Notes under the pieces: model-generated | The model's input: only the letters and a program-made list of their open reading frames with translations | Told to the model about the DNA's origin: nothing | Database searches by the model: none | Translations under genes and position numbers: made by a program | Shown here: in pieces, positions 9,182 through 14,700 of the stretch | Numbering within the stretch: the stretch's first letter is position 1 | Layout: each line of letters begins with the position of its first letter | Assembly: GCA_944324455.1 (NCBI GenBank) | Contig: CALUWJ010000001.1 | Coordinates: 62,001 to 126,000 of the forward strand | Source: Candidatus Gastranaerophilales bacterium | GTDB taxonomy: Bacteria; Cyanobacteriota; Vampirovibrionia; Gastranaerophilales; Gastranaerophilaceae | Length of the DNA: 64,000 nucleotides | Reading direction: 5' to 3'

Positions 9182-11335
9182 CTATTTTTTACTCAAAGCA
9201 ATCAATCCATCTATATCGATTTTTGAAAGATTATTGCGAGAAACTCCCGTTTTAATATAATCGGTAATTTTAGGTAAAGAATAATTTTTTGATAAAAGCC
9301 CTAATTCTTTCATTCTTAATGTTTTATATGTTTCAGAAAGATATTCATTATATTTTTTATATGTCTCAGGGTCCATACCTTTAATTAAATCATATATTTC
9401 AGAATACTGTGTATCTGCTTCAGTAATTTTTCCTGTTACAATATCATAAGGAACATGTTCAACATCAGCAAAAGAATTAACTTCACTTCCTCTTATTTGC
9501 AATTCACCATTTACAATTTCACCATTATTTAAAGTATGCTTTGTATTCATTTGAGCTGAAGTATAGCCTGATTCTTTTATTGCACTTCCTGTTTTTTGTA
9601 TAAATTCGACCTCTGTATCATCAGAAGATTTTTTAACCCATTTTACTTTGTTATTAGGTAAAATCTCATTTTCCTGCAAATCAAACATATTTGAATTTGT
9701 AACCACTGAAAAAGGTTCATCTGAATTAAATACTTTATTGATAACAGCTTCATTATAAGCTTCAAGTATTTCTGTAACCTGTTTATTTGAAAAATAAGAA
9801 GTTATTTCATCTCCGTAATTATTCAATTCTGTAATGTTAACAGTACCTTTTTTAATACCTTCACACAATTGGTCAACAGTACTTTGAGTTTGCTTTTCTT
9901 TAAGAGCACCCAAAATATCTTCTTTTAGAGTTGATAAAACTAATTCTTTTTCATCGCTAATTTTATCGCCTTTAATATATTTTACAAAATCCTTGTAAGT
10001 TGCACTTACTCCTGATTCTTTAAGCATAGATTCAACAATTTCACGAGTTTCTTTTTTATCAAGGCTTTTCATTTGTATTCTTGTGCCTATTGCATCCCCT
10101 ATGACATTAGAACATTTTTCCATTGAATCTAAAACCTCGCCATTAGCTAAATTTTTCTTAGCTAACTTTGAAAAAGTAGATTTTTGACTTTTTGATCTTG
10201 CTGTAATTATTTTAATATCGTCATTATTTGAAAAAGCATCGTTTATTTGAAGTGCAGTTTCATCTAATTGAGAATCAAATTTTTTAGCTAAAACTTCTGA
10301 TTTTTGAGATAAATCAATCAATTCATCGGTTTTTAGAGAATAAATATCATCTTCTATAATTGCTTTTGAAGGATTATTTTTATTGTAATTATCAATATAA
10401 CTTTTAACTTGAGCTTCATTATCAATTTTAGCATCAAGGTTTTTATTGTGTGATATTTTAAATTTTACTTCAGGTGTTGAATTATTTAATTGATACTGTC
10501 CTAAGCTATTTGAAAGACCTCCGAATAAACCGCCAAAAGCAGCACCTGACAGAGCATTTTGTGCTGTTGTTGTTATTAAATCAGATACTTTAAACTCTTT
10601 TTCATCTGCAACCGTGTTTATTGTATAATCTGCTGCACCAGTCGCAGCACCTGTTATTGCACCTGCTTTTGCACCTTGTACCACTCCTTGTTTTAGTGCT
10701 TGTTTTACTGCTTGCCCTGCAATAGGAGCTTTGACAATTCCGGCGGTTGCTGCTGATACTAATCCATCAACAGCTCCTGTTATTCCGTCTTTTGCTATTT
10801 CTTTAACATCAAGAGCATCATTTTCAATATTATTTGTTGCTCTATCCAGTGTTTTTAATCCTGCATTTGTAACTCCGCCAATAATAGCACCTGCAACAAG
10901 AGCGCCGACACCGCCTGTTGCAATGGCAAACCCTGCAGTAGTTAACCCTGTTGCAGTATTAGAAATTATACTAACTGCGCCTTCTTGTTTATTTTTATAG
11001 CTCTCAATAGCCTCATTTGCTTCTTCAAAAGTAATTTCACCCTTTTTATATTGTTCGATTTTTTCTGATACATCATCTGAACTCAAACCAAGATTTGTTA
11101 AATTTTTAAACCCGTTCCAGATTTGTCCTATAATTCCTTGTTCATCCTGCACATCTTCAAAAGCTTCATTTAGCAAATCTACATTTTCTGAAATTGAATT
11201 GGTTGAAGTATTATTTGCGCTAAAAATTGATGATTTATCATCTAAATCATTTGAATTTAAAACATCATAAGATTTATTTCCTTTTAATGACGTTGAAACA
11301 CCATATAAGTCTAAATTTATACTGCAATCATCCAT
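9182..11335 (-). CDS. Toxin-like protein: glycine-rich hydrophobic region plus RelA/SpoT-type pyrophosphokinase domain
   Basis: 717 residues. After a polar N-terminus, residues about 120-280 are rich in Gly and Ala, with several hydrophobic stretches (AGFAIATGGVGALVAGAIIG, GAKAGAITGAATGAADY, ALSGAAFGGLFGGL), like the glycine-zipper segments of polymorphic toxins. The C-terminal part has RelA/SpoT synthetase landmarks: ITARSKSQKSTFSKL (R380, K382, S386, K390), DAIGTRI (D414), ESGYTSAQ (590-595), GELQIRG (E611, Q613, R615) and DVEH (626-627). The usual GYxSxH has Gln for His. There is an unusually long insert between DAIGTRI and GYTS. HD, TGS and ACT domains are absent, so this is not the housekeeping Rel. 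The start is at 11335 after AAGAGAGA. Confidence 0.75.
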   Translation of the reverse strand: MDDCSINLDLYGVSTSLKGNKSYDVLNSNDLDDKSSIFSANNTSTNSISENVDLLNEAFEDVQDEQGIIGQIWNGFKNLTNLGLSSDDVSEKIEQYKKGEITFEEANEAIESYKNKQEGAVSIISNTATGLTTAGFAIATGGVGALVAGAIIGGVTNAGLKTLDRATNNIENDALDVKEIAKDGITGAVDGLVSAATAGIVKAPIAGQAVKQALKQGVVQGAKAGAITGAATGAADYTINTVADEKEFKVSDLITTTAQNALSGAAFGGLFGGLSNSLGQYQLNNSTPEVKFKISHNKNLDAKIDNEAQVKSYIDNYNKNNPSKAIIEDDIYSLKTDELIDLSQKSEVLAKKFDSQLDETALQINDAFSNNDDIKIITARSKSQKSTFSKLAKKNLANGEVLDSMEKCSNVIGDAIGTRIQMKSLDKKETREIVESMLKESGVSATYKDFVKYIKGDKISDEKELVLSTLKEDILGALKEKQTQSTVDQLCEGIKKGTVNITELNNYGDEITSYFSNKQVTEILEAYNEAVINKVFNSDEPFSVVTNSNMFDLQENEILPNNKVKWVKKSSDDTEVEFIQKTGSAIKESGYTSAQMNTKHTLNNGEIVNGELQIRGSEVNSFADVEHVPYDIVTGKITEADTQYSEIYDLIKGMDPETYKKYNEYLSETYKTLRMKELGLLSKNYSLPKITDYIKTGVSRNNLSKIDIDGLIALSKK

Positions 11336-12657: not shown

Positions 12658-14700
12658 TTACTTTTTAGTTTGAGCAAGTTTTCTGTTTTCTATATTTATT
12701 TCTTGAGTTAGAGCATTTATAAATTCATCTCTATATAAAAAACCCAAATGAGCACCATTATTAAATAAAACCAATTTATCATCACAATAGCTTTTTAATT
12801 CTTTTAATTGATTTTTATTTGTTAAATAGTCATCTAAACTATGATAAATCTTATAATTATCTTTATTTATTAAATAATTTGATATTGCACTTAAAGTATT
12901 AGTATTTTCAATTTCATCATAAGAATACTTTTCTAAAAGATAATTTTTTATATAATCTTGAAAATTTGAATTATAAATCATATTATAAGTTATTTTATTA
13001 TCCATATTTTTATTTTTTCTTTTTTCAATTATATAAATCAAATCAGAAAGTTTTTGATGAAATACAAAAGCACTGATTAATTTAGCTTCATAATTAGAAA
13101 ATGGCAAAGTTTTAAAGCTTTTATTCAGTTTTTCTTTTTCTTTATATGCTCTTAAGACTTTTGCTGTGGTAATTGCAACCTTTTGCTTAAAATCATTCGG
13201 ATATCTTTGCCAAGATTCAATAATCTTATCAATTTGCTTAACTGCATACATAAGTTCATACGGAGGACAAATTGCTATAAATTTATCTATATTATTTGCC
13301 CCTTTTTCATATTGTTCATTTGCTAAAAACAAAACCGCATAAGCACCTAAAGATGTCCCTATTGCTGTTCTATCCAAAAAAACCCTATCATACCTGTTCG
13401 ATAAATAAGAAATTATATTATTTATTAATTTATCAATATATTTAACATCATCTTTAATAAAACCGACTTTATAATCTTTATCAAGACTTTTTAAAAATTC
13501 CCACTGAAAATGACTGCCGATAATTACAACACTATAACCTTGCTTATAAAACATTTTAGCCATAATATTATTGTGAGAGCTGTTTATCCCTTCTCCAATC
13601 GAGGGAAAAATAATAACAAGCGGCGATTTTTTATCTTTTTGTAAAACATATCTGAATTGATATTTATCATTATTGGGAGTAATTTCAACAGAAGCTGTTT
13701 TTATTTTTTTATTAAAATTCCTGTTCCAAATTGCATTTTCATTCCAAATTGACCTTTCATCCTCTATTATGTCAAATAAAGCTGTTCTCATAGAATCCAA
13801 TATAGGATTTTGCGGATTAAAATCATTTAAAACAATATCCGCCTTTAGTTCATCATTTGGCATTGATACAATTAAATTTTCACCTTTAATTGAGCCTTTT
13901 ACTTGTAAAACCTTTTCGGTTTTATTATCGGTTAAATCAACTTCATCATAATCATCTTTAATTGAAGCTAAGACATTTTTTCTATCATAATTAGATAATT
14001 TAATATATTTTTCAACACCATAGAATTTTTTAGCAACATCATAAGGATCAACAAAACTTGATTCAACCATTTTAACTATCGGCTGAATAAACATTGTTCT
14101 ATTTATAAGCAACCCCAATTTTACCGCTGCAGCCACAGGAGAAGCAATATATGTTGTTGGAGTTAATAAAAAATCCAAAATTCTTCCATACATATCTCTT
14201 GTAGTTATTGATGAAACAAAAGGTAAAACAAGATAATTACCGCATTTAACCTTGCACTTAGCTAATGCCTGTTCCATATCTTCATTGTATAATTCTAAAT
14301 CAAAAAATTTATCTGCAACATCCATCAATCCTGCAACTCCAAGAGTTGTATTGATAAAAAATCTTTTAGTTTCATGTTTTACTGCTTCAAAATCATGCTG
14401 TAACAATGAACTTACAAGCCTTTTTGGATATTGAATATTAGAATAGACGCTATTTAAACTATCAATTACAAAATTGGGGAATAAAGATGCCCATAAAATA
14501 TGCACTCTTTTTACAAATAATTTATTTAATTTCAAATTAAGATAAAAAACTTTTCTGTTTATATCTTCAAACTTATCTTCGTTCAAATACAACGCGCTAT
14601 AACTCGGATATTTTAAATTCGGTTTTATTAATTCATCAGCGCATACTATGTTTGAAATTATAATATTTAGTAATAAAATTAATGCTGTTAGCTTCTTCAT
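12658..14700 (-). CDS. MlaA (VacJ) domain fused to an alpha/beta hydrolase
   Basis: 680 residues: a signal sequence (1-21, no good lipobox), an MlaA-type domain at about 40-240, and a C-terminal alpha/beta hydrolase at about 340-675. MlaA landmarks are FEDINRKVFYLNLKLNKLFV, KRFFINTTLGVAGLMDVADK, CGNYLVLPFVSS and TTRDMYGRILD. Hydrolase landmarks are LVIIFPSIGE, the nucleophile elbow GTSLGA with Ser450, and FNNGAHLGFLYRDEF supplying the likely catalytic His. MlaA normally works in the outer membrane, removing misplaced phospholipids. A fused hydrolase suggests lipid or ester cleavage coupled to that process (inference). The start at 14700 has GAGGAT. Confidence 0.8.
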   Translation of the reverse strand: MKKLTALILLLNIIISNIVCADELIKPNLKYPSYSALYLNEDKFEDINRKVFYLNLKLNKLFVKRVHILWASLFPNFVIDSLNSVYSNIQYPKRLVSSLLQHDFEAVKHETKRFFINTTLGVAGLMDVADKFFDLELYNEDMEQALAKCKVKCGNYLVLPFVSSITTRDMYGRILDFLLTPTTYIASPVAAAVKLGLLINRTMFIQPIVKMVESSFVDPYDVAKKFYGVEKYIKLSNYDRKNVLASIKDDYDEVDLTDNKTEKVLQVKGSIKGENLIVSMPNDELKADIVLNDFNPQNPILDSMRTALFDIIEDERSIWNENAIWNRNFNKKIKTASVEITPNNDKYQFRYVLQKDKKSPLVIIFPSIGEGINSSHNNIMAKMFYKQGYSVVIIGSHFQWEFLKSLDKDYKVGFIKDDVKYIDKLINNIISYLSNRYDRVFLDRTAIGTSLGAYAVLFLANEQYEKGANNIDKFIAICPPYELMYAVKQIDKIIESWQRYPNDFKQKVAITTAKVLRAYKEKEKLNKSFKTLPFSNYEAKLISAFVFHQKLSDLIYIIEKRKNKNMDNKITYNMIYNSNFQDYIKNYLLEKYSYDEIENTNTLSAISNYLINKDNYKIYHSLDDYLTNKNQLKELKSYCDDKLVLFNNGAHLGFLYRDEFINALTQEINIENRKLAQTKK

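Follow-up and report, generated by a model that had tools for sequence, protein, structure and literature searches.

A single gene of a Gastranaerophilales bacterium encodes an MlaA-family domain and, in the same chain of 680 residues, an alpha/beta hydrolase that resembles the Pseudomonas lipase MlaY. The reading favoured here, to which a probability of roughly three in four is given from sequence comparisons, is that the fusion is a one-chain MlaZ-MlaY system, which would extract misplaced phospholipids from the outer leaflet of the outer membrane, hydrolyse them and dispense with MlaC. The Gastranaerophilales are non-photosynthetic Cyanobacteriota/Melainabacteria of animal and human guts, and their envelope biology is little studied.

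The gene is at positions 12658-14700 of the window (the whole stretch of DNA analysed, 64,000 nucleotides) and is found on the minus strand, where it forms an open reading frame of 680 codons with an ATG start; read on the plus strand, the same interval has many stops. The genome that carries it is 1.76 Mb in length and 99.4% complete. The sequence-only reading had proposed one exported protein of 680 residues, and the minus strand encodes such a protein, whose N-terminus, judged by eye, resembles a signal peptidase I signal. Its features are as follows.

12658..14700, minus strand: fused mlaZ-mlaY-like gene, 680 aa, one open frame
14638..14700, minus strand: predicted signal peptide of the signal peptidase I type, approximately residues 1-21, without a lipobox (N-termini judged by eye)
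14020..14580, minus strand: MlaA domain PF04333, residues 41-227 (Pfam E 3.2e-40; phmmer matches to solved MlaA chains)
13840..13989, minus strand: variable linker, about residues 238-287 (length spread across 49 sequences)
12685..13668, minus strand: alpha/beta hydrolase of MlaY-like type, capped by helices, approximately residues 345-672 (hhalign, AlphaFold2, PDB Z scores)
13351..13353, minus strand: predicted nucleophile Ser450 in G-T-S-L-G (49/49 sequences; equals MlaY Ser187 in alignment)
12829..12831, minus strand: predicted catalytic acid Asp624 (48/48 sequences reaching that point; equals MlaY Asp388 in alignment)
12748..12750, minus strand: predicted catalytic His651 in G-A-H-L-G (48/48 sequences reaching that point; equals MlaY His415 in alignment)

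MlaA is a doughnut-shaped outer-membrane pore that is bound to porins. The N-terminal half of the fusion matches this family well above the cut-off (138 bits against 25), and the match is near-complete, covering profile positions 2-188 of 195. The solved MlaA chains 5nuo, 5nuq and 8i8r also match, with phmmer E-values from 1.5e-12 (5nuo) to 5.8e-11. Thus the domain search upholds the complete MlaA-type half that had been read from the letters. Two properties of this half count against the favoured reading: identity to E. coli MlaA is about 28%, and in a tree of MlaA domains the branch that sets the fusions and MlaZ together has a long stem and weak support (69/73). A full-length AlphaFold2 model built with 19 close sequences is poor in the MlaA half, with pLDDT below 50 over residues 19-327. 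The linker is highly variable; between flanking conserved residues it measures 32-169 residues in the 49 sequences, with a median of 68.

By eye, the N-termini of the 49 aligned fusions are hydrophobic and have A-x-A-like ends, and none shows a conserved lipobox cysteine; a lone cysteine, in SNIVC-A, is not conserved. The fusion protein looks like one exported through a signal peptidase I-type signal. A lipobox is typical of the MlaA family, but members without a lipoprotein signal have been reported (PMC11131202), and therefore its absence does not exclude the fusion from the family.

The C-terminal half has no name in Pfam or NCBIfam. A Pfam scan of the fusion at E-values up to 1 returned just MlaA, Abhydrolase_1 and a weak AIG1 match, and Abhydrolase_1 (E 0.0023) is below its cut-off. 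A profile search of PDB sequences with this half gave no match. AlphaFold2 modelling of residues 283-672 (pLDDT 74.6, pTM 0.79) predicts a hydrolase fold that carries a helical insert. The model matches esterases, thioesterases and lipases in the PDB, with Z scores as high as 19.5 across 245 residues; the Foldseek E-value is 4.5e-08. It should be pointed out that these matches of a predicted model are evidence of fold alone.

Comparison with MlaY is more specific. The hydrolase half aligns by hhalign with one MlaY at 99.3% probability (E 5e-20, 306 columns) and with four MlaY-like proteins at 99.7% probability (E 5e-27, 319 columns). An HMM of the fusion family finds the MlaY proteins of Fusobacterium and Pseudomonas at E 1e-26 to 9e-26 and those of Skermanella at about 1e-13. 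These comparisons identify the C-terminal half as a homologue of MlaY (PA3238) over nearly the whole domain, and the predicted triad S450/D624/H651 falls on MlaY S187/D388/H415. Identity to MlaY is just about 20%, which counts against the favoured reading. Two motifs singled out earlier, GTSLGA with its serine and the GAHLG histidine region, hold up as conserved sites in all sequences that reach them, and the proposed C-terminal hydrolase is confirmed by MlaY homology, by the model and by the PDB matches, with the Pfam match remaining below cut-off. From the conserved triad it can be suggested that the fusion hydrolyses phospholipids.

Four papers that treat the pair (PMC11131202, PMC12569750, PMC10474453, PMC11977310) describe MlaY (PA3238) as a periplasmic lipase of P. 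aeruginosa and propose that MlaZ (PA3239) removes mislocalised phospholipids from the outer leaflet for delivery to MlaY. They cite Guest et al. (2023, PNAS) for the system, and the MlaY active site is given as Ser187/Asp388/His415 (PMC11977310). A tblastn search of 72,556 plasmid records, which stand in for other phyla, with the entire protein as query matched 58 of them; among the 30 listed, only P. aeruginosa genes and Fusobacterium vincentii match the hydrolase half. The P. aeruginosa alpha/beta hydrolases do so at E 9e-15. In the one P. aeruginosa record examined, the next gene behind the hydrolase, 3 bases on, belongs to the VacJ/MlaA family. The P. aeruginosa protein of 453 residues has its Ser187, Asp388 and His415 at precisely the positions published for MlaY, which supports identification of the pair as PA3238-PA3239.

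The F. vincentii locus matches both halves of the fusion, and an MlaA-family gene comes directly after the hydrolase gene, with a 29-base overlap as the reading frames were called. This mlaY-mlaZ-like pair (NZ_CP084075.1; L069, 5788-7828) is on a 2.1-Mb record that is filed as a plasmid and is chromosome-like. On two Skermanella plasmids a hydrolase/MlaA-family pair is found just ahead of a TamB-domain gene. RND efflux genes are present on the other side of the pair (L071, 2902-7266; L072, 2893-7212), and the neighbourhood is possibly a lipid-transport cluster. MlaY-like and MlaA-family sequences are thus linked in a single chain in Gastranaerophilales and as adjoining genes in P. aeruginosa, F. 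vincentii and Skermanella.

This linkage bears on a different reading of the hydrolase, in which the MlaA half would anchor the protein in the outer membrane or feed lipids to it, and the enzyme would be a nutrient-scavenging esterase that acts on other periplasmic substrates, e.g. dietary or host esters, or lysolipids. The relatives come largely from animal gut samples, and feruloyl and cinnamoyl esterases are among the nearest solved folds, although what these share with the hydrolase half is a common fold alone. However, the hydrolase is specifically homologous to MlaY (HMM E-values of 1e-26 to 4e-13, with two ordinary alpha/beta hydrolases not reported by the same HMM), and MlaY-like proteins are repeatedly paired with MlaA-family proteins in other phyla. 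A scavenging function is therefore considered improbable.

The neighbours of the fusion do not form an evident Mla operon. Upstream, the genes for RarA and an extracellular solute-binding protein are syntenic in most close relatives and have no evident functional link to it; downstream, glf adjoins the fusion in 0 of 18 compared relatives. Neither was retained as an operon partner. Elsewhere in the window, at 9182-11335 on the minus strand, is a protein of 717 aa whose N-terminal stretch is rich in glycine and alanine. Its residues 380-456 weakly match a RelA/SpoT-like nucleotidyltransferase (E 1.5e-4, which does not reach the Pfam cut-off), and it is possibly an alarmone-type enzyme.

MlaC (PF05494) was found neither in the source genome nor in any of 146 Gastranaerophilales genomes, the latter search with E. 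coli and Caulobacter as positive controls. Neither the source genome nor the fusion protein gave a match to PldA (PF02253). The LptD profile (PF04453) likewise has no match in the source genome, but it also misses the Synechococcus control, so that this negative carries no weight. LpxC is present in all 146 genomes and so does not discriminate between those with and without the fusion; its presence agrees with published work that infers for Melainabacteria an envelope of Gram-negative type and genes for lipid A and LPS (PMC3787301).

The source genome does have mlaE-mlaF together with a long MlaD of 454 aa. An orphan short MCE/MlaD protein of 218 aa (L050; G000:C1:144139-144366) is found apart from this cluster, between a dihydroxy-acid dehydratase-like and an exonuclease-like open reading frame. 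Long MlaD proteins have been proposed to span the envelope without MlaA or MlaC (PMC10665443). Perhaps, then, the MlaA half feeds MlaEFD toward the inner membrane, with long MlaD in the place of MlaC and the hydrolase reduced to a regulatory or side activity. This is judged unlikely, as all MlaA domains of the order come with the hydrolase, the triad is invariant in the sequences checked, and fusion and mlaEFD are not near each other in the source genome (contigs C1 and C7, respectively).

A survey of how widespread the fusion is had been proposed from the sequence. PF04333 is found in 92 of 386 genomes sampled across the phylum, all of them Gastranaerophilales (families f1 and f7), with no match elsewhere in the Cyanobacteriota of that sample. 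Ninety-one of the 92 have it in one long frame; the exception (G134) is broken by contig ends, its halves reaching to within 1-2 bases of them. Within a sample of 146 Gastranaerophilales genomes, 71 have PF04333, in single copy and in all but one case in frames of 650-830 residues. A search of 373 genomes with a hydrolase-half profile recovers the MlaA-bearing genomes, in the long frame, and no strong standalone copy; two extra weak matches (G378 and G234) resemble unrelated hydrolases. A joining of two genes through an assembly or frame error, raised with the original reading, can be dismissed, since tens of independent genomes, from more than 20 genera, have the same single frame, with products about 40-86% identical to the 680-aa protein, and the apparent split in G134 is a contig break.

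Among the closest relatives, both domains show more synonymous than nonsynonymous changes (105:54 in the hydrolase and 58:22 in the MlaA domain relative to L032), and these counts indicate that both halves are under purifying selection. The distribution is nonetheless patchy. G131, of the same genus as the source genome and 99% complete, has no fusion, and the pattern suggests repeated loss. About half of the order is without the gene while all sampled members keep LpxC; the fusion is therefore dispensable, which counts against the favoured reading.

The reading as a one-chain MlaZ-MlaY system can be put as a sequence of steps. The fusion would be exported and its N-terminal MlaA/MlaZ-like domain seated in the outer membrane, where the pore would draw in phospholipids that have strayed to the outer leaflet. 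A flexible linker would keep the MlaY-like enzyme, a serine hydrolase, at the periplasmic face, where it would cut the acyl esters of the extracted lipid by way of Ser450-Asp624-His651. With the lipid broken down where it is extracted, an MlaC shuttle would be unneeded, a proposal to which an order without MlaC also lends itself. The cell might benefit through the asymmetry of its outer membrane.

The sequence-only reading had suggested that the fusion could hydrolyse the lipids it captures. This agrees with the mechanism proposed for MlaZ-MlaY, as both halves are homologous and the MlaY triad is kept, and the support is comparative. The further suggestion that the roles of Mla and an outer-membrane phospholipase are merged survives in part: joint extraction and cleavage stand as a proposal, but the enzyme would be MlaY-like and periplasmic, not a beta-barrel of the PldA type. 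Joint extraction and hydrolysis are already known in two-gene form, as MlaY-MlaZ; what differs here is the single chain, its reversed order and the lineage. The open-access literature yielded no report of an MlaA-lipase fusion, and Guest et al. (2023) may still mention one.

The MlaYZ model comes from work on a single pathogen and has genetics as its basis. A fusion that occurs naturally and is conserved across a bacterial order is independent evidence for direct transfer of lipid from MlaZ to MlaY, and the single chain makes this hand-over testable with one purified protein. In a 2023 survey of 1,083 genomes, MlaABC was described as ‘totally absent in diderm Terrabacteria’ (PMC10665443). The finding of MlaA makes the Gastranaerophilales an exception and corrects this picture: here is an outer membrane with MlaA but without MlaC. 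It appears fairly probable that the fusion, in one chain and in a lineage outside the Proteobacteria that has no MlaC, represents an MlaC-independent, transport-free upkeep of asymmetry, born when MlaZ and MlaY were fused in the opposite order, as well as an exception to the reported lack of MlaA in diderm Terrabacteria.

Compared with canonical MlaA (VacJ), the fusion has a full MlaA domain and the conserved motifs, e.g. N-R-x-x-F and the G-x-x-G-x-x-D region, but it differs in its attached hydrolase, in having neither a lipobox nor an MlaC partner, and in its host outside the Proteobacteria. The canonical Mla pathway runs through MlaA, MlaC and MlaBDEF, whereas the Gastranaerophilales have no MlaC (0/146). 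Veillonella parvula, with an MlaEFD-only system, is closer in that it also belongs to a Terrabacteria lineage and has mlaE-mlaF and a long MlaD without MlaC. Veillonella has no MlaA, however, while Gastranaerophilales have MlaA fused to a lipase-like domain. PldA/OMPLA degrades outer-leaflet phospholipids, the role proposed for the fusion, yet PldA is a beta-barrel and the fusion has an alpha/beta hydrolase without a PF02253 match. The nearest known system is MlaY-MlaZ. P. aeruginosa also has the canonical MlaA-MlaC pathway, in contrast to the 146 Gastranaerophilales genomes, where MlaC was not found, and its pair consists of two genes in the order mlaY-mlaZ, whereas the fusion is one gene with MlaA placed before the hydrolase. 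Both nevertheless combine an MlaA-family protein with a probably exported alpha/beta hydrolase, with a common catalytic triad and hydrolase homology over the whole domain.
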